From contig NZ_AULZ01000002.1 in assembly GCF_000422545.1 (NCBI RefSeq), positions 186,001 through 250,000 of the forward strand: DNA of 64,000 nt. The letters run 5' to 3'. Shown here piece by piece: positions 2,934-13,338 of this stretch (the stretch's first letter is position 1; every line of letters starts with the position of its first letter). The stretch is from Desulfocurvibacter africanus subsp. africanus DSM 2603 (GTDB lineage: Bacteria > Desulfobacterota > Desulfovibrionia > Desulfovibrionales > Desulfovibrionaceae). The position numbers were made by a program, and so were the translations under genes. The notes under the pieces are model-generated. The model searched no databases. It was not told the origin of the DNA and worked only from the letters and a program-made list of their open reading frames with translations.

Positions 2934-2955
2934 GATGAGATGCGTTTCGTTAGTC

Positions 2956-2998
2956 TTGACGGCGACTCCGACCTATTGATATCCGTTTATCCGGATAT
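2956..2998 (+). promoter_or_regulatory. Putative promoter and operator of the second arsR
   Basis: A TTGACG hexamer at 2956 is followed 16-17 bases later by GATATC/ATATCC, a weak sigma70 pair. An inverted repeat ATATCCG-N6-CGGATAT at 2979-2998 covers the presumed -10 region and runs into the ATG at 2997. This position would suit autorepression by the encoded ArsR. The adjacent repeat element ends at 2933, so the native promoter must lie in this short stretch or inside the repeat. Confidence 0.4.
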
Positions 2999-3359
2999 GA
3001 AAATAAACTGTGAGAGTCTTTCCGGGCTATTCAAAGCCCTCTCCGAGGAGGTCAGGCTGCGCATGCTGGCCCTGTTGGCGTTCTCCGACAAAGGCGAACT
3101 GTGCGTGTGCGACATCATGTCCGCTCTGGACATTCCCCAGTCCACGGCCTCGCGGCACCTGGCGCACCTGCGCGGGGCCGATCTGGTCAAGGGCCGCCGC
3201 AAGGGGGCCTGGACCTACTACCGGCTTGTGCAGGATGGAGAGGGGCCTTGGAAGTGGCTGGAGCAGGCACTGAACGACCTGCGTCGCGAATGTCCGCAGG
3301 TCGAGCAGGACCTGGAGGCGCTCAAGCGCTATCTGGCGACCAAGCAGGAATCCTGCTGA
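2997..3359 (+). CDS. arsR: ArsR-family arsenical repressor (second copy)
   Basis: This winged-helix repressor has the classical arsenic-binding motif ELCVCDIM at the start of the recognition region, followed by STASRHLAHLRGADLV. It is 120 residues from the ATG at 2997. An upstream ATG at 2940 would add 19 residues that do not resemble the family and would leave only seven bases to the repeat element, so 2997 is preferred. Neither start has a strong ribosome site. It lies 44 bases ahead of the arsenite exporter and probably controls that gene and arsC. Its cysteine arrangement differs from the first arsR, so the two units may respond differently. Confidence 0.85.
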   Translation: MKINCESLSGLFKALSEEVRLRMLALLAFSDKGELCVCDIMSALDIPQSTASRHLAHLRGADLVKGRRKGAWTYYRLVQDGEGPWKWLEQALNDLRRECPQVEQDLEALKRYLATKQESC

Positions 3360-3403
3360 CCCTGACCGCAAGCCGCCATATCGGCGCATAAGGAGGTTGC
3401 ACC

Positions 3404-4507
3404 ATGGCCGAGACCGTGATCAAGCGCCTGTCCTTTCTGGACCGCTACCTGACCCTGTGGATATTCCTGGCCATGTTCATCGGCGTCATGGCCGGCTACC
3501 TGGCCCCGGGCGTGCAGGACGTCATCAACTACTTCCAGGTGGGCACCACGAACATCCCCATCGCCATCGGCCTCATCCTCATGATGTACCCGCCGCTGGC
3601 CAAGGTGCGCTACGAGGAACTGCATCGCGTCTTCCGGGATGCGAAGGTGCTGACCCTGTCTCTCGTGCAGAACTGGATCGTGGGGCCGATCCTCATGTTC
3701 CTGCTGGCCATCGCCTTTCTATCGGGCCATCACGAATACATGGTCGGGCTCATCCTCATCGGTCTGGCCCGCTGCATCGCCATGGTCATCGTCTGGAACG
3801 ACCTGGCCGAGGGCGACTGCGAGTACTGCGCGGGACTTGTGGCCTTCAACTCCATCTTCCAAGTGCTCCTCTTCTCGGTCTACGCCTACGTGTTCATCAC
3901 CGTCCTGCCCGGCTGGTTCGGCCTGGAGGGCGCGGCCGTGGACATCTCCATGGGCCAGATCGCCCAGAGCGTGTTCATCTACTTGGGCATACCCTTCATC
4001 GCCGGCATGCTCTCGCGCTACATAGGCTTGAAGACCAAGGGCCGCGACTGGTACGAGCAGAAATTCGTGCCGGCCATCAGCCCCTTTACGCTCATTTTTC
4101 TTCTGTTCACCATCCTGGTCATGTTCTCGCTCAAGGGCGAGTACATCGTGCAACTGCCGCTGGACGTCATCCGCATCGCCATCCCGCTGTGCGTCTACTT
4201 CCTGGTCATGTTCCTGGTCTCCTTCTTCATGTCCATGAAGGTCGGAGCGACCTACGAGCAGGCCACCACGCTCTCCTTCACCGCAGCCTCCAACAACTTC
4301 GAGTTGGCCATCGCCGTGGCCATCGCGGTCTTCGGCATCAATTCGGGCGTGGCCTTCGCCGCGGTTATCGGGCCGCTCGTGGAAGTGCCCGTGCTCATCG
4401 GCCTGGTCAACGTGGCCCTGTACTTCAAGCGCAAATACTTCCCCTACGCAGTGCAGAGGATCGGCGGCGTGTGCCACGTGACCTGCAAGCCGGACCCGAG
4501 GAGGTAG
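3404..4507 (+). CDS. acr3: ACR3-type arsenite efflux permease
   Basis: This 367-residue membrane protein has about ten hydrophobic segments and belongs to the ACR3 (BART superfamily) group, which exports As(III) using the proton-motive force. The conserved cysteine is visible in [18 protein letters not shown], and the functional glutamate in [13 protein letters not shown] near the last helices. Length and order fit ACR3, not the longer 12-helix ArsB. AGGAGG lies eight bases upstream of the ATG. The stop is four bases before arsC, so export and arsenate reduction are co-expressed. Confidence 0.95.
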
Positions 4508-4511
4508 CCAT

Positions 4512-4940
<429 letters not shown>

Positions 4941-5152: not shown

Positions 5153-6586
5153 GTGAAGAACTTTTCCCTGACCCTTAATATCCGTACGAAGATATTACTG
5201 GGCTACATAGTCTGTCTGCTCATCATGAGCGCCATTGGCTTAGTATCTTTGTACTATCTTCTTCTCGTGGGCGAAAAAATCAGACTTCTGGAGACGGCCG
5301 ACGACTTCACCAATGCCGTCCTGGAAGCCCGCCGCTACGAGAAGAACTACCTTCTGTACGGATCACAGGAAGACTACGAAGAGAGCAGGGCTTGGCTTGC
5401 GCGGGGGTTCTCCATGCTCGACAATCAGGAACCCTTGCGTTTCACGCGCCAAAGCCCGGACATGCTCAGCCCGTTGCGCGACGATCTCGTGCGCTACGGG
5501 CAGATCATGGAAGCCATCCGAGTGCAGCGCACCGCCCGTGCCGAGGACGACTTGCGTGATGTCGGCAAGGACCTCGTGGACAAGGCGCTGCATGCCGCCA
5601 ACGTGCAGCGGGTGGAGATTCTGCGCATCACGGACAAGCTCAAGGTTTCGCTGTGGGTCGGCCTTTCGGCCGTTGCCCTCTTCGGCTCCATTCTGCTCGT
5701 GTTCGTGAACCGCAAGTTCATCAGACCCCTGTCGCTCATCGAGCACGCCACCGAGCGCATCGCCCAGGGCCGCTTCGTACCGCTGCCGCTGCCGCCCGGG
5801 CGCGACGAGATCCGCCAAGTCATGGCGGCCCTGAACCACATGGCCACGGAACTCCTCAAGCGTCAGGGACAGCTCGTGCAGGCCCAAAAGCTCTCCTCCA
5901 TAGGCACGCTCTCCTCGGGCATCGCCCACCAGCTCAACAACCCCTTGAACAACATCTCGACCTCCAGCCAGATCCTCAAGGAGGAGCTTGGCGGCGAGGC
6001 TCCGGAGTTCCAGCGCAGAATGCTCGCCAACATCGAGCAGGAAACCTTCCGGGCCAGGGACATCGTGCGCGGTCTGCTCGAATTTTCACGGCACAAGGAC
6101 TTCAATCCGGCGTCCAATCGGGTCAAAGACATCGTGGAGCGCTCCATGCTGCTTATCAAGAGCCAGGCTCCGGCCGGCGTGACCCTGGAAACGGACATCC
6201 CCGAAGACCTTGTGGCATTCTGCGATAAGAACGGCATGCAGGAGGTCTTCATCAACCTCCTGCTCAACGCGGTGCAAGCCATCGACCAGCCGCCGGGCAA
6301 GGTGCGCGTGACGGCCAAGGACGTGCCGGGCCGCAACGAGGTGCGTATCGCCGTGTCCGACACGGGCAGGGGCATGTCCGAGGCTGTCAAAAGTCAGGTC
6401 TTCGACCCCTTCTTCTCCACCAAGGAGGTCGAGGTCGGCACGGGTCTGGGCCTGTTCATCGTCTACGGACTCGTGCTCAAGAACCGCGGGAGCATCTCGG
6501 TGGAGAGCTCCGTTGGCCAGGGCGCGACCTTTTTCATCACCTTGCCCAAAAGCGCGCCTGCCGAGCGCGCCGAGGTCGCCAGATGA
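5153..6586 (+). CDS. Membrane sensor histidine kinase
   Basis: This 477-residue kinase has two membrane helices, at about residues 13-38 and 166-186, enclosing a mostly helical extracytoplasmic sensor of about 125 residues. A HAMP linker follows (about 187-240), then the dimerisation helix with the phosphorylated histidine H259 in SSGIAHQLNNPLNN, and the ATPase domain with NLLLNAVQAI, DTGRGM and GTGLGLFIV. The start is GTG at 5153 with GGAG upstream. The stop overlaps the following regulator by four bases (ATGA), so the two form a two-component pair. The helical sensor resembles domains seen in chemoreceptors, and its ligand is unknown. Confidence 0.92.
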   Translation: MKNFSLTLNIRTKILLGYIVCLLIMSAIGLVSLYYLLLVGEKIRLLETADDFTNAVLEARRYEKNYLLYGSQEDYEESRAWLARGFSMLDNQEPLRFTRQSPDMLSPLRDDLVRYGQIMEAIRVQRTARAEDDLRDVGKDLVDKALHAANVQRVEILRITDKLKVSLWVGLSAVALFGSILLVFVNRKFIRPLSLIEHATERIAQGRFVPLPLPPGRDEIRQVMAALNHMATELLKRQGQLVQAQKLSSIGTLSSGIAHQLNNPLNNISTSSQILKEELGGEAPEFQRRMLANIEQETFRARDIVRGLLEFSRHKDFNPASNRVKDIVERSMLLIKSQAPAGVTLETDIPEDLVAFCDKNGMQEVFINLLLNAVQAIDQPPGKVRVTAKDVPGRNEVRIAVSDTGRGMSEAVKSQVFDPFFSTKEVEVGTGLGLFIVYGLVLKNRGSISVESSVGQGATFFITLPKSAPAERAEVAR

Positions 6587-7947
6587 TCGAGGCGCGCATC
6601 CTGCTTGTCGAGGACGAGGAAATAGCCAGGTCCAACTACGAGTATGTCCTGGCCAAGGAAGGCCATGACGTGACCGGCGTCGGTGACGGACAATCTGCGC
6701 TCGCCGCCCTTGAGCGCAGCACTTTTGATCTGGTCGTCACGGACTTGCGCCTGCCCGACATGGATGGTCTGGATGTCCTCCAGAAAGCCAAGGAGCGCTT
6801 GCCCGAGGCCGAGGTTCTGCTCATCACGGCCTATGGCACGGTGCCCATGGCCGTTGAGGCCATGCGCCTGGGCGCATACCATTTCCTGCAGAAGCCCATC
6901 GGGCTCGACGAGCTCCGCGTCACGGTGAAAAAAGCTCTGGAGAAGGTTCGGCTGCGTCAGGAGGTCAACCTGCTGCGCGAGCAGATCGCGGCCTCGGCCG
7001 GAACCGCGCTCGTGGGGAACAGCCCGCTCACGCGTGCTCTGCGCCAAGCCATCGCCCAGTTCGCGGCCGTGGACTCCAACGTGCTCATTCTGGGCGAGAC
7101 CGGCACGGGCAAGGAGCTGGTGGCCAAGCTCATCCACGTGCAGAGCCCCAGACGCGACAAGCGCTTTCTGGCCGTCAACTGCGCGGCCTTCAGCGAACAG
7201 CTCCTGGAAAGCGAGCTGTTCGGCCATGAGGCCGGGGCCTTCACCGGGGCGCGGAACATGAAGCCGGGGTTGTTCGAAGTGGCCGAGGGCGGGACGTTCT
7301 TTCTGGACGAGATTGGCGACATGCCCCTGCCCATGCAGGCCAAGCTCCTGCGGGTCCTTGAGGACAGGACGCTCATCCGGGTCGGAGGCACGCGGGAGAT
7401 ACCCGTGGACGTGCGCATCGTGGCGGCCACGAACAAGGACCTCAAGAGCGAGGTGGAGCAGGGCGCTTTCCGCCGCGACCTGTTCTACCGGCTCAACGTG
7501 ATCACCCTGAATATCCCGACCCTGGCCGAGCGTCGCGAGGACATCCCTGTCCTGGCCGAGTTCTTCGTCGGCAAGTACGCCCGGCTCATGGGCAAGAACG
7601 TGGAGGGCATATCGGATGCGGCCATGGGCCTGCTCAAGGGCTATTCGTATCCGGGCAATGTCCGTGAGCTCGAGAACATCGTCGAGCGCTCGGTGGCCAT
7701 GTGCAACGGCTCGCTCATTCAGCCCGCCCACCTGCCCGACGATGTGCGCGGCCTCGGCGTCCGCCTGACCCGCGCCACGGGCGACGAGCCCATGACCCTG
7801 CTCGACAACGAGAAGCGGCACATCCTGGCCGTGCTCGAATCCGTAGGCTGGAACAGGACCCGTGCAGCCGAGGTCCTCGGCATCGACCGCGCCTCTTTGT
7901 GGCGCAAGATCAAGCGCTACGGCCTCGGTTCCGGCACGGATTCCTGA
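6583..7947 (+). CDS. Sigma54-dependent response regulator (NtrC family)
   Basis: This 454-residue activator has a receiver domain with phosphorylatable D54 (VVTDLRLPDMDG) and the conserved lysine in FLQKPIG. An AAA+ domain carries Walker A GETGTGKE at 171-178 and the sigma54 contact loop GAFTGA at 218-223. A Fis-type helix-turn-helix closes the protein (NRTRAAEVLGIDRASLWRKI). It is translationally coupled to the kinase and converges on the Lon-like gene with only two bases between stops. A sigma54-like promoter with paired dyads lies beyond that gene (10034-10216) and is a likely target. That link is inferred from position. Confidence 0.94.
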   Translation: MIEARILLVEDEEIARSNYEYVLAKEGHDVTGVGDGQSALAALERSTFDLVVTDLRLPDMDGLDVLQKAKERLPEAEVLLITAYGTVPMAVEAMRLGAYHFLQKPIGLDELRVTVKKALEKVRLRQEVNLLREQIAASAGTALVGNSPLTRALRQAIAQFAAVDSNVLILGETGTGKELVAKLIHVQSPRRDKRFLAVNCAAFSEQLLESELFGHEAGAFTGARNMKPGLFEVAEGGTFFLDEIGDMPLPMQAKLLRVLEDRTLIRVGGTREIPVDVRIVAATNKDLKSEVEQGAFRRDLFYRLNVITLNIPTLAERREDIPVLAEFFVGKYARLMGKNVEGISDAAMGLLKGYSYPGNVRELENIVERSVAMCNGSLIQPAHLPDDVRGLGVRLTRATGDEPMTLLDNEKRHILAVLESVGWNRTRAAEVLGIDRASLWRKIKRYGLGSGTDS

Positions 7948-7949
7948 GC

Positions 7950-9965
7950 CTATCGCTGCAAGGCTTCCTCTATCGCATCGATCGCGGTCTCGGCAAAGAC
8001 GACCCGCACCGCCTGCCTGACATCCTCATCCAAAACCCGCCATTCGATTTCGTTGGGCTTGGGCAGAACCACGGTCACGACTCCGGCGCGCTGGGCGGCC
8101 AGGAGCTTCTCGCGCAGTCCGCCCACGGGAAGGAGCCGTCCGCTCAGGGTCATCTCGCCGGTCATGGCCACGTCGCTGCGCGCGGGCCGGTCCAACAGTA
8201 GCGAGACGAGCGCCACGGCGATGGTCACACCCGCCGAGGGGCCGTCCTTGGGGATGGCCCCGGCCGGGATGTGCACGTGGATGTCGCACTCCTTGAAAAA
8301 GTTCGGAGCGATGCCGAGTTCGCCGGCGCGGCTGCGGATATAGCTGAGGGCCGTCTGGGCCGACTCCTTGAGTACCTCGCCCAGGGAGCCTGTGAGCATG
8401 AGTCCGCCGCCGCCGGCCATGCGCGCGGTCTCGATGAACAGAATCTGGCCCCCGTACTCCGAGTAGACCAGACCCGTGGCCACGCCCACTGCGTCGGCCC
8501 TGGCCGCTGCCTCGGGCCTGAAACGCGGGGGGCCAAGCAGGGCGGTGACCTCGGCTGCGTCGAGACTGGACGGCAGGCGGAGCTTCCCGGCAAGCACTTG
8601 GCGGTCGACCTTTCGGCACAGGGAGCCGATCTCGCGGTCCAGGTTGCGCAGGCCGGCCTCGCGCGTGTAGCCGTCGATTACCGTGTCCAGGGCCGCGTCC
8701 GTGAAGCTCAGGTCCTTGGTTCTCAGCCCTGCGCCGTGCATCTGGCGCGGGGCTATATAGTCCCTGGCGATGCGCCGTTTCTCCAGTGGCGTGTAGCTCT
8801 GGAAGGGTATGGCCTCCATGCGGTCGTACAGGGGGCGCGGCAGCTCCTCGACGACATTGGCCGTGGTGATGAACATGACCCCGGACAGGTCGAAGGGCAT
8901 GTCCAGGTAGTAGTCCAGAAATCGCCGGTTCTGTTCCGGGTCCAGGACTTCCAGGAGCACCGAAGCCGGATCACCGCGGAAATCCTTGCCTATCTTGTCC
9001 ACCTCGTCGAGCATGAACACTGGGTTGTTCACCTCGGCCCGCTTGAGCTCGGCCAGGATGCGGCCGGGCATGGCTCCGACATAGGTGCGCCTGTGGCCGC
9101 GCAGTTCGGCTTCGTCGCGCAGACCTGCCATGGACAGGCGAATGAACTTGCGGCCCAGGGCAGCGGCCACGCCCCGGCCGATGGACGTCTTGCCCGTGCC
9201 CGGAGGGCCCGAGAAGCACAGGATCGGCCCGCGCGCCACTCGGCTCTTGGCCTTGGCGTCGAGAATGTCGCGGCTCACGGAACGGAGCACGTCGAGATTG
9301 AGAGGCTTGGGCAGGTAGTGGGCCGCGCCTTTCTTCAGGGCGTTCACGGCCGTGTCCACGGTGGCGAAACCCGTGACGAGGATGAGTTCGGTCTGCGGGC
9401 TGGCCGCCTTGAGACGCTCCAGGAGTTCCAGGCCGTCCATCTGGTTCATCTTGAGGTCGGTGATGACCAGGTCGCATTCGGTCCGGGCCAGGACTTCCAT
9501 AGCCTGCCGTCCGTTCTCCGCCGTCAGGACTTCGTAGCCGTCCTTGCCGAGTACGTAAGCCATGTTGTCCAGGGCTATGCGCTCGTCGTCGACCACGAGC
9601 ACCCGCCTGGGTCTGCTGCTGACCATGATGCTGGCGGCCAAGTGTTCCAGGACCCGTTCCTTGACCCTGGACAGGCCGAAGTGATCCTCATTGAGGACCC
9701 GCTCGGCCCTGGACAAATCCAGGTTGTCCGGGGTGGCCGCATTCCACGGCAGAGCGAGCACGAACTGGACCCAGTTATAGCCGACGCTGTACTCGGCCAC
9801 GCTTGGATCGGTCTTGTCCAGCCGTTCGAGTTCCTTGGTCACGGCTTGGCGGGCATGCTCCGGAAGGCGCGCCTCGGCTATGGCCTTCCTGAGTTCCGCC
9901 AGCGGCTCAGGCTTTTCCTCGACCGGTCTCTGCGCCGTCTCCTCCATGCGCCTGAAGAAGGGCAT
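7950..9965 (-). CDS. Lon-type protease with an embedded response-regulator receiver domain
   Basis: The 671-residue product combines three parts. Residues about 20-113 match the helical stretch that precedes the ATPase in Lon (EYSVGYNWV...LPW, then DHFGLSRVKERVLEHLAA). A complete receiver follows at about 121-232, with acidic pair D126/D127, phospho-acceptor D170 (VITDLKMNQMDG), T198 and K220 (YLPKP). The Lon AAA+ domain resumes with Walker A GPPGTGKTS (253-261) and FMLDEVDK, and the S16 protease domain has catalytic S577 (KDGPSAG) and K620 (LREKLL). The usual Lon N-terminal substrate-binding domain is missing. The receiver thus sits exactly at the junction that couples the N-terminal helices to the ATPase. 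The start at 9965 has AGAGAGG upstream; a longer frame to 10067 looks non-coding. Phosphorylation-controlled proteolysis is an inference. Confidence 0.93.
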   Translation of the reverse strand: MPFFRRMEETAQRPVEEKPEPLAELRKAIAEARLPEHARQAVTKELERLDKTDPSVAEYSVGYNWVQFVLALPWNAATPDNLDLSRAERVLNEDHFGLSRVKERVLEHLAASIMVSSRPRRVLVVDDERIALDNMAYVLGKDGYEVLTAENGRQAMEVLARTECDLVITDLKMNQMDGLELLERLKAASPQTELILVTGFATVDTAVNALKKGAAHYLPKPLNLDVLRSVSRDILDAKAKSRVARGPILCFSGPPGTGKTSIGRGVAAALGRKFIRLSMAGLRDEAELRGHRRTYVGAMPGRILAELKRAEVNNPVFMLDEVDKIGKDFRGDPASVLLEVLDPEQNRRFLDYYLDMPFDLSGVMFITTANVVEELPRPLYDRMEAIPFQSYTPLEKRRIARDYIAPRQMHGAGLRTKDLSFTDAALDTVIDGYTREAGLRNLDREIGSLCRKVDRQVLAGKLRLPSSLDAAEVTALLGPPRFRPEAAARADAVGVATGLVYSEYGGQILFIETARMAGGGGLMLTGSLGEVLKESAQTALSYIRSRAGELGIAPNFFKECDIHVHIPAGAIPKDGPSAGVTIAVALVSLLLDRPARSDVAMTGEMTLSGRLLPVGGLREKLLAAQRAGVVTVVLPKPNEIEWRVLDEDVRQAVRVVFAETAIDAIEEALQR

Positions 9966-10033: not shown

Positions 10034-10067
10034 TTGCATTCTGCAATCCAGGTGTTGCGCATTGCAA
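10034..10067. promoter_or_regulatory. Paired dyads, candidate activator-binding sites
   Basis: Two copies of TTGC-N5-GCAA lie at 10034-10046 and 10055-10067, exactly 21 bases apart, which is two helical turns. They sit in the divergent gap between the Lon-like gene and the sigma54-like promoter at 10201, about 175 bases upstream of the expected transcription start. This is the geometry of enhancer sites for NtrC-type dimers. The neighbouring regulator at 6583-7947 is the obvious candidate binder. Confidence 0.55.
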
Positions 10068-10200
10068 CGTAGGCCAAAGGCCCTTGTTTTAGCCAACTTT
10101 CCGTAGCGCATACTGCCAGACGTTCGCTTCTGCAACACTCTCGCCGGACAGCCCGCCATCAATTAAAATTATCATGATATATATTAAGTAATTACATGTT

Positions 10201-10246: not shown

Positions 10247-10756
10247 ATGCAGAATGTGATGGAAGACTGGGCCGCAGCCGTAGCCTTCGCCGAGCAGGGG
10301 GACTTCACCTCGGCCCTGCTTTTGGCCGAGGGAGTTCAGGAACTTGCCGAGCGCGGTTCCAAGAAGTTCATCGTCATCTCGCCCAATCTCGTTCTTCCCG
10401 AAGGCGTCGCTCGCCATGTGATCGACCTCGCCGAGCGCCTGGGCAGGGATGTTTTCCTGGCCACCTGCTTGCGTGGGCTGAGCGGCTCGCAGGGCAGGGC
10501 TCCCAGCCGGGCGCGCCTGAAGCGGGAAATCGCTGATTCGGCCGCATTCTACAGTGGATTCAAGAGCGCATTGGCCGCCAAGCGGCTGCAGTGCGCCAGA
10601 TTGGCCAGCCTGGAAGGCGCCAAGCACATCATGGACATGCTGTCCATGGGCATGCGCGGCATCGAGTTCGCCATCGTGCATGGCGACAAGAAGATTTTCC
10701 TCGGCCAACGGACCGCCTTGACGGTCTTCTGCATCGAAGACCCCAAGGCTGGCTGA
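10247..10756 (+). CDS. Protein of unknown function in the sigma54-controlled module
   Basis: I do not recognise a family for this 169-residue soluble protein. It opens with MQNVMEDWAAAVAFAEQGDF, then a segment that could be an alpha/beta fold (KKFIVISPNLVLPEG), and ends with a stretch resembling a small beta domain (MRGIEFAIVHGDKKIFLG). The motif AAVAFAE-x-GD near its start recurs at the start of the next gene, which is otherwise unrelated. The start at 10247 is preferred because AGAGGG lies six bases upstream and because the putative promoter would place transcription start near 10227. Longer starts at 10229 or 10196 would be leaderless or inside the promoter. Confidence 0.7.
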   Translation: MQNVMEDWAAAVAFAEQGDFTSALLLAEGVQELAERGSKKFIVISPNLVLPEGVARHVIDLAERLGRDVFLATCLRGLSGSQGRAPSRARLKREIADSAAFYSGFKSALAAKRLQCARLASLEGAKHIMDMLSMGMRGIEFAIVHGDKKIFLGQRTALTVFCIEDPKAG

Positions 10757-10839
10757 GACATCGCAGCATCATGTTGCCCAACCTCGCGCTTCGGGGATGG
10801 GAACAGGACGATACCAACACGAAACTGAAGGAGAGGACC

Positions 10840-11286
10840 ATGAGTTCCGATTCGAACAAACTTGAAACTATCCCGGCCGCCGTGGCCTTCGCCGAGCGCG
10901 GCGACAGCAAGACCGCTATGGAGCTGATGGCCGGCGCCGCCGACCAGGGAACCCGTCCACCGACGCAGCAGCGCAAGGGCAACTCGCAACGCAGAGCCGC
11001 TGCCAAGCGCGCGACCCTCTTCGGCGCCATGAGCCTCGGCTTGTATGGTGTGCTCTTCGCCTACTCCGACACGATCATGCACTACTTCACCATGGGCGGC
11101 GTCCATGCGGTCCTGCCCATCGCCACGGTTTTTCTCTTCTCCTACGTGCACGGCACCTTCGCCGGCGAATTGTGGACATCCTTGGGCATCACGGCTTCCA
11201 AGAAGATCGGCAAGCCCGCGGCCAAGCAGGACGAAGTGCGCAAGCCGGCCCGCGACACGCGCCCGCGTGCGACCTTGAACGCCTAA
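10840..11286 (+). CDS. Small membrane protein of unknown function
   Basis: This 148-residue product begins with a hydrophilic region of about 60 residues containing PAAVAFAERGDSKTAMEL, which shares AAVAFAE-x-GD with the preceding protein. Two hydrophobic helices follow, at about residues 64-82 and 90-108, and the tail is basic. GGAGAGG lies just upstream of the ATG. It sits between the unknown soluble protein and the TauE-like exporter, suggesting a subunit or regulator of that membrane system. No catalytic motif is visible. Confidence 0.72.
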   Translation: MSSDSNKLETIPAAVAFAERGDSKTAMELMAGAADQGTRPPTQQRKGNSQRRAAAKRATLFGAMSLGLYGVLFAYSDTIMHYFTMGGVHAVLPIATVFLFSYVHGTFAGELWTSLGITASKKIGKPAAKQDEVRKPARDTRPRATLNA

Positions 11287-11300
11287 TGGAATCATCGTCC

Positions 11301-11316
11301 CGGCACGGGGCGTGCG
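11301..11316 (+). promoter_or_regulatory. Second sigma54-like promoter, before the exporter gene
   Basis: CGGCACGGGGCGTGCG keeps GGCAC, the ten-base spacing and the -12 GC of the sigma54 consensus. It lies 47 bases ahead of the exporter start. GC-rich DNA gives chance matches, so this is less secure than the site at 10201. Confidence 0.4.
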
Positions 11317-11362
11317 TAGTCAGCTAGTATAAAGAGAATACTAAGAGCAGGAGACAATACCA

Positions 11363-12439
11363 ATGCATGGCGCAGTACCCGGTGAGGTCGTTCAGTTCAT
11401 CGATCTCAACCTCTTGACCTTCACCTTCCTTTTCTTCGTCGGCCTGGTCGGCGGCTTGGTCAGCGGCTTTATCGGTTCGGGCGGAGCCTTCGTGCTCACC
11501 CCCGGCATGATGAGCCTCGGCGTGCCCGGCACCGTGGCCGTGGCCAGCAACATGTGTCACAAGTTCCCCAAGGCTCTGGTGGGCGCCATTAAGCGCTTCC
11601 GCTACAACCAGGTGGACGTGAAGCTCGGCGTTATCCTCGGCGCTTCGGCCGAAGTCGGCGTGCAGATCGGCATCGGCTTCCAGAAATACATCCTGGACAC
11701 CTTTGGCCCGGCCGGCTCCGACTTGTATGTGAGCCTGATGTTCGTGGCCGTGCTCGTCATCGTCGGCGGCATCGTCTTCCGCGACGCCATGAACATCAGG
11801 CGCTCTGGCGGCGAGGAGAAGGCCACCAGCCTGTCCAAGAAGATCCAGAGCATCGAGCTGTGGCCCATGATCACCTTCAAGCGCTCGGGCATCCGCGTAT
11901 CCCTGTGGTTCACCGTGCCGCTGGGCTTGGCAACCGGCCTGCTCGCCGCGACCATCGCCGTGGGCGGCTTCGTCGGAGTGCCCGGCATGATCTACCTCCT
12001 GGGCGTGGCCAGCATCATGGCCTCCGGCACCGAACTGGTCATCGCCTTCGTCATGGGTCTGGGCGGCAGCGCCATCTGGGCCTACTACGGTCTGGTGGAC
12101 ATCCGCCTCACGCTCATCATCCTGTCCGGTTCGCTGCTCGGCGTGCAGCTCGGCGCTATCGGCACGACCTACGTCAAGGAGTACATGATCAAGGTGGTCA
12201 TGGCCACGATCATGCTCATCGTGGCCGTAAGCCGCGGCCTGGCCATTCCCAAGTACCTGACCAAGCTCGGCGTGATGTCCCTGGGCGACACCACCGTGAG
12301 CATCCTCACCACCATAAGCTTCGGCATCATGCTCCTGGCCCTCGTCATCGGCGCGGGGATAATTCTCAAGTCCATCTTCACGGGTTTGCGCCAGGAACGC
12401 GCCCAGGCGGACGCGGCTGCAACCGGACAGGAAGCCTGA
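11363..12439 (+). CDS. TauE/SafE-family sulfite exporter-like permease
   Basis: This 358-residue integral membrane protein has about eight hydrophobic segments in two pseudo-symmetrical halves. Glycine-rich motifs at GLVSGFIGSGGAFVLTP and GLLAATIAVGGFVGVPGMI are the paired signatures of the TauE/SafE family, which exports sulfite or sulfoacetate-type anions. NMCHKFPKALVG is a further conserved-looking stretch. AGGAGA precedes the ATG by nine bases. In a sulfate reducer, a sulfur oxyanion substrate is plausible but not shown. It is flanked by a small membrane protein and a universal stress protein. Confidence 0.88.
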   Translation: MHGAVPGEVVQFIDLNLLTFTFLFFVGLVGGLVSGFIGSGGAFVLTPGMMSLGVPGTVAVASNMCHKFPKALVGAIKRFRYNQVDVKLGVILGASAEVGVQIGIGFQKYILDTFGPAGSDLYVSLMFVAVLVIVGGIVFRDAMNIRRSGGEEKATSLSKKIQSIELWPMITFKRSGIRVSLWFTVPLGLATGLLAATIAVGGFVGVPGMIYLLGVASIMASGTELVIAFVMGLGGSAIWAYYGLVDIRLTLIILSGSLLGVQLGAIGTTYVKEYMIKVVMATIMLIVAVSRGLAIPKYLTKLGVMSLGDTTVSILTTISFGIMLLALVIGAGIILKSIFTGLRQERAQADAAATGQEA

Positions 12440-12489
12440 TCGGCCACCAGCATTAGAGCAGGGATCAAGGCAAGGAGTAGGGCAAACCC

Positions 12490-13338
12490 ATGATCAAGCG
12501 CATCCTTATTGCCGTCGACGGCTCCGAGACCGCCTACCACGCACTGGAGCAGGCCTTGGCTCTGGCCAAGGCCGAGCAGGCCGAAGTGCTCGTCGTCTCA
12601 GTGGTCCCGGCCTATCAGGGCGACCTGCGCCTCATGGGCAGCACAGAGGCCCTGAAGGGCATGCGCGAGCCGTTTGCCAAGGCGTTCGACAAAGCCATGC
12701 GGGCGGCCAAAGCCGCTGGAGTGCCATGCACCGGCAAGCTGCTGGAGGGTGAGCCTTACGAGGCCATTCTATCCCTTGCCGAGGCCGAGCAGGTCGATCT
12801 CGTGGCCATCGGCAAATGCGGGACCGGCTTCCACCATCTCCTGCCCATGGGCACGGTGGCCTCCAGGATTATCGGCTTGTCGACCTGCGACGTGCTCATT
12901 GTCCCGGATAGCGTGCAGCTCGACACAAAGCGCATTCTCCTTCCCTTCGACGGCTCGGCGCATGCGCGCAAAGCCTCGGACAAGGCCATGGAGATCGCGG
13001 CGCGCTATGGCTCGGAACTGGCCGTCCTCACGGCCGTCGATCTCCCCCTGGAGGGTTTCGCTCTGGATTCGAGCCTCATGGAGCGTTTCACGGCGGAGTC
13101 TCGCGGCCTGCAGGCGGAAGTGCTCCGCATGGCCGGTGGGCGCGGCGTGCGCCAGACCCGCGCACTCGTACGCGAAGGTCATCCACGAGCCGAGATCGTC
13201 GCGGCAGTCCGTGAGGAGCAGCCTGGTCTGATCATCATGGGCTCGCATGGTCGAAGCGGCCTCAAGGCCCTGCTCCTGGGCAGCGTGGCCCAGGCGGTCA
13301 TCGCCTCGGGAGTCAGCCCGGTGTTGATAGCCAAGTAG
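12490..13338 (+). CDS. Tandem universal stress protein (UspA-like)
   Basis: This 282-residue protein has two Usp domains. The first begins KRILIAVDGSETA and has the nucleotide-binding motif G-2x-G-9x-GT (IGKCGTGFHHLLPMGT). The second begins KRILLPFDGSAHA and has G-2x-G-9x-GS (GSHGRSGLKALLLGS). Both keep the ATP-binding pattern. It is the last gene of the stress module and is followed by a strong terminator. The partner process is unknown. Confidence 0.93.
   Translation: MIKRILIAVDGSETAYHALEQALALAKAEQAEVLVVSVVPAYQGDLRLMGSTEALKGMREPFAKAFDKAMRAAKAAGVPCTGKLLEGEPYEAILSLAEAEQVDLVAIGKCGTGFHHLLPMGTVASRIIGLSTCDVLIVPDSVQLDTKRILLPFDGSAHARKASDKAMEIAARYGSELAVLTAVDLPLEGFALDSSLMERFTAESRGLQAEVLRMAGGRGVRQTRALVREGHPRAEIVAAVREEQPGLIIMGSHGRSGLKALLLGSVAQAVIASGVSPVLIAK

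Follow-up and report, generated by a model that had tools for sequence, protein, structure and literature searches.

A receiver-containing Lon protease of Desulfocurvibacter africanus as a candidate phospho-gated arm of a two-component system

In a 64,000-nucleotide stretch of the Desulfocurvibacter africanus subsp. africanus DSM 2603 genome (hereafter, the window), we analyzed a gene for a Lon protease that carries a complete receiver domain between its N-terminal helices and its AAA+ domain (RR-Lon; Table 1). Such proteins are real, widespread and constrained, and their kind has already been named in print. On balance, we consider it probable that RR-Lon is the phospho-gated, proteolytic branch of a two-component system with two outputs, in which it would share a kinase with the adjacent sigma-54 activator.

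Results

Domain layout and structure model

The RR-Lon frame opens with an ATG at 9965, with GAGAGG six bases upstream; an upstream TTG extension of the frame overlaps the palindrome at 10034–10046. The same start position is possible in the relatives of RR-Lon, although this agreement is partly by construction, because our scripts took the Met closest to the expected start. A chance or artefactual origin of the frame is ruled out by its 671 open codons and by 84 aligned relatives.

Pfam matches covered Response_reg (residues 122–229, 9.5e-29), AAA (249–386, 1.3e-23), Lon_lid (412–461) and Lon_C (469–670, 1.6e-76), and the protein passed the cut-off of the NCBIfam Lon equivalog TIGR00763 (678.8 bits vs. 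608.05). RR-Lon thus has the features of a LonA-type protease (S16), namely an AAA+ domain with Walker A and B, a Lon_lid and a Ser-Lys dyad in Lon_C. It also has those of a response-regulator receiver: the acid pair (D126/D127), the phospho-Asp (D170), the switch Thr/Ser (T198) and the Lys (K220). This bears out the first-pass annotation of the window, which had read a full receiver with intact phosphorylation residues and numbered D170 as we do. The same annotation had placed the receiver between the KERVLEHLAA helix and the GPILCF strand, and Pfam and the model agree on both junctions: KERVLEHLAA spans residues 102–111 within helix 99–117, the first receiver strand begins at 121, and, right after the receiver, GPILCF runs on into AAA strand 248–252. 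Its further claim that the Lon N-terminal substrate-recognition domain is missing holds as well. LON_substr_bdg (PF02190) was not matched in RR-Lon at E ≤ 0.001 in the Pfam search, while L001 and L002, the two further strong Lon genes of this genome, both encode it; the five Lon_C matches found there comprise RR-Lon, these two and two weak ones (42 and 33 bits). RR-Lon is therefore a Lon variant rather than a typical LonA. Where the LON domain would be, the RR-Lon N-terminus (9948–9965) has a conserved start, M-x-F-F-K/R-K, with F4 kept in 71 of 85 sequences; with no LON domain there, this start might contact a membrane or a partner instead.

Table 1. Features of the RR-Lon locus (positions within the window)
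Feature	Position	Strand	Basis
Receiver-Lon (RR-Lon), 671 aa	7950..9965	-	ORF, Pfam, alignment, model
Lon N-terminal helical part, residues 21–117, with three-helix bundle	9615..9905	-	Model; superposes on 4ypn
Receiver domain, residues 121–244; last helix 224–244 reaches the AAA strand	9234..9605	-	Pfam; model; 3crn Z 23.7
D170 codon, predicted phospho-acceptor	9456..9458	-	D in 85/85 aligned RR-Lons
Lon AAA+ alpha/beta domain, residues 245–388; Walker A GPPGTGKT, Walker B FMLDEVD	8802..9233	-	Pfam; alignment
Lon_C protease domain, residues 469–670; catalytic S577 and K620	7956..8561	-	Pfam; alignment
Sensor histidine kinase (HAMP, HisKA, HATPase_c), probable common phosphodonor	5153..6586	+	Pfam; linkage
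Sigma-54 activator (receiver, AAA, Fis-type HTH), DVU3305-like	6583..7947	+	Pfam, NCBIfam, locus comparison
Palindrome TTGCATTCTGCAA, likely activator site in divergent promoter region	10034..10046	.	Pattern counts
Second palindrome, GTTGC-N5-GCAAC	10054..10068	.	Upstream-region scan
Tagged USP-like protein: N-terminal motif (...AAAVAFAEQGDFTSALLLA) and USP-like fold	10247..10756	+	Profile, model, structure search
Tagged small protein: motif (...PAAVAFAERGDSKTAMELM) and hydrophobic part, membrane-like by eye	10840..11286	+	Profile, locus comparison
TauE/SafE-type permease; positional counterpart of DVU3299 'putative anion transporter'	11363..12439	+	Pfam; linkage
Universal stress protein, two Usp stretches	12490..13338	+	Pfam; locus comparison

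An AlphaFold2 model of RR-Lon, built on 70 of the 85 sequences and representing one conformation of the monomer, had a mean pLDDT of 87.7 and a pTM of 0.81, with low confidence at residues 1–18. When residues 19–390 were compared with the three-helix bundle and AAA domain of a LonA (4ypn), 249 of 250 residues superposed at 1.7 Å (Z 32.2, VIA-align). The receiver, itself matching 3crn, stands out in this superposition as a looped-out insert that leaves the bundle/AAA geometry undisturbed. Its alpha5 (224–244) runs into the AAA strand 248–252 beside the P-loop in the model, and a signal might be transmitted through this joint; any placement of the receiver in a hexamer is inferred. The 13 best Foldseek matches were all bacterial Lon proteins, 36–40% identical to RR-Lon. 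Canonical LonA (4ypl, 4ypn, 6u5z, 7fd4) shares with it the three-helix bundle, the AAA+ domain, the lid and the Ser-Lys protease domain, but has the LON substrate-binding domain that RR-Lon lacks, and has no receiver between bundle and AAA strand.

Conservation and distribution

In the alignment of 85 RR-Lons (own sequence included, split-gene locus L267 left out), D126, D170 and K220 were present in all 85 sequences, D127 in 83 (E in two) and T198 in 83 (S in two). The ATPase residues were equally constant, with Walker A K259 and Walker B D320 in 85 and E321 in 84, and the protease dyad (S577, K620) was invariant. In L267 (G043:C11, 7217–9248), the RR-Lon gene is broken into two overlapping frames, while matches to the permease, activator and kinase are near full length; the split is either a real loss or an assembly error.

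Full-length RR-Lon matches scored 5e-210 or better, whereas ordinary Lons reached 4.5e-168 at best and covered only residues ~242–670; the split copy scored 7.0e-171. Of 395 Desulfobacterota genomes, 48 encode RR-Lon (own included), as do 24 of 198 from Nitrospirota and 13 of 39 close relatives, again with the own genome counted. None occurred in 151 Chloroflexi genomes, where the search had no positive control. Among 80 loci of the named genome collection, a receiver lies in the Lon frame in L036 (Halodesulfovibrio) and L037 and is absent from 78. A contig-end fragment of a fragmented genome (G021:C356:2-496), left out of the counts, matches RR-Lon residues 2–167 at 52% and is probably a further RR-Lon, cut short by the assembly. 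We also considered and dismissed an origin from plasmids, as none of 62 matching plasmid records covered 80% of the RR-Lon query, and from phages, as the two viral-contig matches resemble insert-free Lons, going by their lengths of 1,530 and 1,548 bases.

Gene neighborhood

In the window, the sigma-54 activator sits between the kinase and the RR-Lon gene, and the latter lies tail to tail against both. RR-Lon, kinase and activator are found together here, as in the DVU3303-type three-component system (see below), and 10247–13338 holds four linked genes of the DVU3302–3298 kinds, compared by published descriptions rather than DVU sequences. Just upstream (2940–4940), Pfam matches point to an ArsR-type regulator, an SBF-family transporter and an LMWPc-fold protein, which we take to be an arsenic-resistance set.

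To see how common this neighborhood is, we tallied BLAST matches within 9 kb of RR-Lon, with no identity floor for kinase and activator, contig-end loci counted as misses and L267 skipped. Of 85 loci, 65 had a kinase and an activator like those of the window, lying downstream in the same orientation in 24, convergent as in the window in 27 and otherwise arranged in 14. The remaining 20 had no such pair within this distance, six of them being shorter than 16 kb. A TauE-type permease (at least 55% identity) was present in 52 of 85 loci and a USP-type match in 33. Seven modules (L292–L298) from genomes without an RR-Lon match retain kinase and activator. Tagged proteins (see below) are present in them too, with permease and USP matches in five of the seven, and they make a comparison set for the contribution of RR-Lon.

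Origin of the fusion

In the tree of Lon halves, 82 RR-Lon tips and 13 second copies (L006–L018) formed one clade with a support of 1.0, leaving 100 other Lon tips outside. The receivers told a matching story in a FastTree phylogeny of the 120-residue domain, with moderate supports (0.80–0.89): all 85 RR-Lon receivers composed one clade (0.865) among those of the module sigma-54 activators, the 157-tip clade uniting both (0.80) contained none of 65 unrelated receivers, and a narrower one of 153 tips had a support of 0.89. Six module activators fell outside the 157-tip clade, namely the five best-scoring ones of L241–L243, L249 and L252 and one from L295; in the former five loci another activator may be the true partner. 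Since the RR-Lon receivers are nested among those of the activators and the Lon halves form one clade, these sequences suggest that the fusion most likely arose once, when an ancestral Lon acquired the receiver of a neighboring activator.

The kinase-facing helix alpha1 is in line with this ancestry. Over 70 loci, its identity to RR-Lon was 0.53 for the activator of the same locus, 0.50 for activators of other loci and 0.20 for unrelated receivers, while the rest of the receiver gave 0.48, 0.46 and 0.335, respectively. The RR-Lon consensus of alpha1, E-I-A-R-x-N-L-E-H-V-L-x-K-E-G-Y, in which single positions other than the variable ones are 43–97% conserved, recurs nearly unchanged in the activators. 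Given the descent from the activator and the common alpha1, one kinase probably serves both receivers. The excess within loci is slight, which supports a shared kind of kinase and not locus-by-locus matching; coevolution of alpha1 in the latter sense was accordingly set aside. The earlier idea that the neighboring kinase is the phosphodonor thus gains indirect support from the grouping of the receivers and the near-identical alpha1. This kinase does not adjoin the Lon gene.

Palindromes of the divergent promoter region

TTGCA-N3-TGCAA occurs in 26 of 85 regions upstream of RR-Lon and in none of 20 mononucleotide shuffles. Its density was 32.7/Mb in the loci of the 85 RR-Lons and 2.5/Mb in those of 78 ordinary Lons, and 34 of 46 sites fall upstream of RR-Lon at a distance of at most 450 bp. 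It was as dense in six module loci that lack RR-Lon (30.7/Mb, three sites), and the palindrome therefore goes with the activator. Because such modules keep kinase, activator and palindrome, the transcription arm appears to be independent of RR-Lon. The palindrome is likely an activator site and would have a role at the promoter.

Exact copies were found at three places in the own genome, vs. one for the backwards control pattern. The copy at 10034–10046 lies outside the scanned ORF on that side and the other two lie inside ORFs, which led us to discard a genome-wide regulon. No convincing sigma-54 -24/-12 box was seen by eye in the divergent region of the window. Across the 85 upstream regions, a strict -24/-12 pattern was present in six (shuffles 0.1) and a loose one in 31 (shuffles 7.65).

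A motif shared by the divergent proteins

The least expected observation of this analysis is a tag of ~25 residues, about [L/M]E..MxAxAFAEAGExxxAxxLM, at the N-terminus of proteins encoded divergently from RR-Lon. An alignment of 43 rows reads xKxExxxxAxAFAEAGExxxA, with A9, A13, E14, G16 and A21 invariant, although A13, E14 and G16 were imposed by the pattern that chose the pieces. A profile trained on these loci scored 109 copies at 18 bits or more, spread over 53 of the 86 RR-Lon loci (at least two copies in 46), and 54 of these copies fall outside the picking pattern. In 80 control loci, ordinary-Lon or viral, no copy was found and the best score was 6.7 bits. The other 33 RR-Lon loci had no match of at least 18 bits, the motif being degenerate or absent in some. 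The usual tagged pair, directly divergent from RR-Lon, consists of a basic peptide of ~55 residues and a USP-like protein, whereas in the window a small hydrophobic protein accompanies the USP-like one.

In 38 tagged USP-like proteins, mean pairwise identity was 0.40 in the motif region vs. 0.24 in the fold, a comparison favored by the selection of these proteins by their motif. In the model of the USP-like protein, the tag falls within an N-terminal stretch of low confidence, and the body gave six structural matches at E ≤ 0.001, all USP. As a known domain the tag found only weak, below-cut-off matches in Pfam and NCBIfam (TPR_4, PTS_IIA, EIIA-LAC, PPR, Cdc6_lid), and we rejected this reading.

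Genome-wide, the tag was present in 51 of 395 genomes, 29 of the 48 with RR-Lon and 22 of the 347 without it (Fisher 7e-18, uncorrected for kinship and with profile seeds taken from RR-Lon loci). All seven modules lacking RR-Lon carry it (L292–L298; the L295 contig is 4.8 kb long), and in eight loci with histidine kinases (L288, L290, L291, L299, L303, L305–L307) it is found C-terminally on stand-alone receivers, L288 belonging to the own genome. The tag thus belongs first to the kinase/activator module. These occurrences, together with the 33 RR-Lon loci below 18 bits, weaken its reading as an RR-Lon-only degron, and since both motif and palindrome are also found in modules without RR-Lon, we rate the motif as no more than a weak degron candidate. 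It is still tempting to speculate, even if we think this unlikely, that the tag is a recognition tag of the module, which RR-Lon, having no LON domain, would read as a degron or adaptor handle. Phosphorylation would then cause a set of stress proteins, expressed from the promoter region that RR-Lon shares, to be destroyed or exchanged, and the C-terminally tagged receivers would be clients of a related machine.

Discussion

The architecture is not unprecedented, since a receiver-Lon, DVU3303 of Desulfovibrio vulgaris Hildenborough, was published together with the phospho-switch idea in 2011 (PMC3333781). In its passages on this system, that paper describes DVU3303-3304-3305 as a 'three-component system' of receiver-Lon, histidine kinase and sigma-54 activator, proposes phospho-activation of the protease and reports the system in Proteobacteria. 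There, DVU3305 regulates its own operon and DVU3302–3298, and expression of DVU3303–3305 and/or DVU3298–3302 rises at high pH, under heat shock and in stationary phase (PMC3333781). Orthologues of the activator, mostly with receiver-Lon, are reported in Thermodesulfovibrio, Thioalkalivibrio and Dechloromonas in the literature on this system (PMC3333781, PMC10102598, PMC4641369), where DVU3305 is listed with GAFSGA (PMC4641369). The first-pass annotation, which named no characterised phospho-switched Lon, is consequently not supported as to the novelty of the protein and the idea. In the open-licence literature, we found no biochemical study of receiver-Lon phosphorylation, ATPase or protease activity.

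RR-Lon of the window is of the DVU3303 kind, an identity that rests on gene content and not on direct alignment. Both systems have receiver-Lon, kinase and activator, as well as a nearby operon for membrane, hypothetical and UspA-type proteins and a putative anion transporter. They differ in that DVU3303–3305 is treated as one operon, whereas RR-Lon in the window is convergent to kinase and activator, and in that DVU3302–3298 has five genes against four in the window; in both, the transporter gene is next to last, and the last gene of the window, for a USP, matches in kind. According to a 2023 fitness study, DVU3303–3305 have pairwise co-fitness above 0.9 and are detrimental in chlorate, where their target DVU3299, the putative anion transporter, is important (PMC10102598). 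These opposed signs mean that simple activation does not explain the phenotype, and the co-fitness may be polar, the three genes being treated as one operon. The passages of these papers that cover DVU3303 give no insertion point, receiver ancestry or tag motif. The single origin of the fusion, the ancestry of the receiver, its looped-out position in the model, the palindrome and the shared motif are new here.

In NtrC/AtoC-type activators, the receiver stands ahead of the AAA+ domain and its phosphorylation gates that domain. The RR-Lon receiver most likely descends from such a receiver, but it is inserted after an N-terminal bundle and the output of the protein is proteolysis. The pairs RssB/ClpXP and CpdR/ClpXP likewise couple a two-component signal to an AAA+ protease through a receiver. 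There, the receiver belongs to a separate adaptor that serves ClpXP in trans, whereas in RR-Lon it is built into the polypeptide of the protease itself, which is a Lon.

For the window, we propose that the kinase (5153–6586) would phosphorylate both the receiver of the sigma-54 activator and, at D170, the receiver of RR-Lon, which have their recognition helix in common. The phosphorylated activator would switch on the divergent promoter region, with RR-Lon on one side and the tagged USP-like protein, the small tagged protein, the TauE-type permease and the USP on the other. Phosphorylation of D170 would alter the alpha4-beta5-alpha5 face of the inserted receiver, and the altered face might gate (presumably, activate) the ATPase/hexamer or substrate entry, since alpha5 extends directly into the AAA+ strand that neighbors the P-loop. 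As a result, a small set of substrates would be destroyed under the same stress signal that drives transcription. We count the phospho-site, invariant in 85 of 85 sequences, and the intact protease and ATPase residues in favor of such phospho-gating.

The same architecture could be read differently, with the receiver as a built-in adaptor whose phosphorylation enables the capture of substrates in place of the LON domain and does not gate the ATPase. LON_substr_bdg, missing here and kept in both other strong Lons of the genome, would fit this reading, and so would the undisturbed bundle/AAA geometry; phosphorylated RssB, moreover, delivers substrate to ClpXP, as stated in the relevant part of PMC7593790. 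The receiver might in this manner take over adaptor-dependent recognition. A mere adaptor, however, would not need to be inserted so that it lines up with the AAA strand at the P-loop; we regard a built-in adaptor as possible, if rather unlikely.

The frequent linkage of RR-Lon to kinase and activator would also suit a negative-feedback device that removes one of these two partners, and Lon control of the two-component-system regulator FixT is known in Caulobacter. Yet the three DVU genes share the same, not the opposite, fitness pattern (possibly a polar effect; PMC10102598), and we find such feedback quite improbable. That the receiver is a relic or a phosphate sink on a constitutive Lon might be argued from genomes whose kinase/activator module tolerates the absence of RR-Lon; with the phospho-site and switch residues kept in 83–85 of 85 sequences, this reading seems to us very improbable indeed.

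If RR-Lon is indeed phospho-gated, it would be a protease with an in-chain two-component switch, through which a signal reaches protein destruction without an adaptor, and receiver-Lon would offer a compact system for studying how a receiver controls an AAA+ ring. With the phospho-site, the likely kinase, the alpha5-to-AAA-strand joint and the tagged proteins as candidate clients now named, the phospho-switch idea becomes directly testable.
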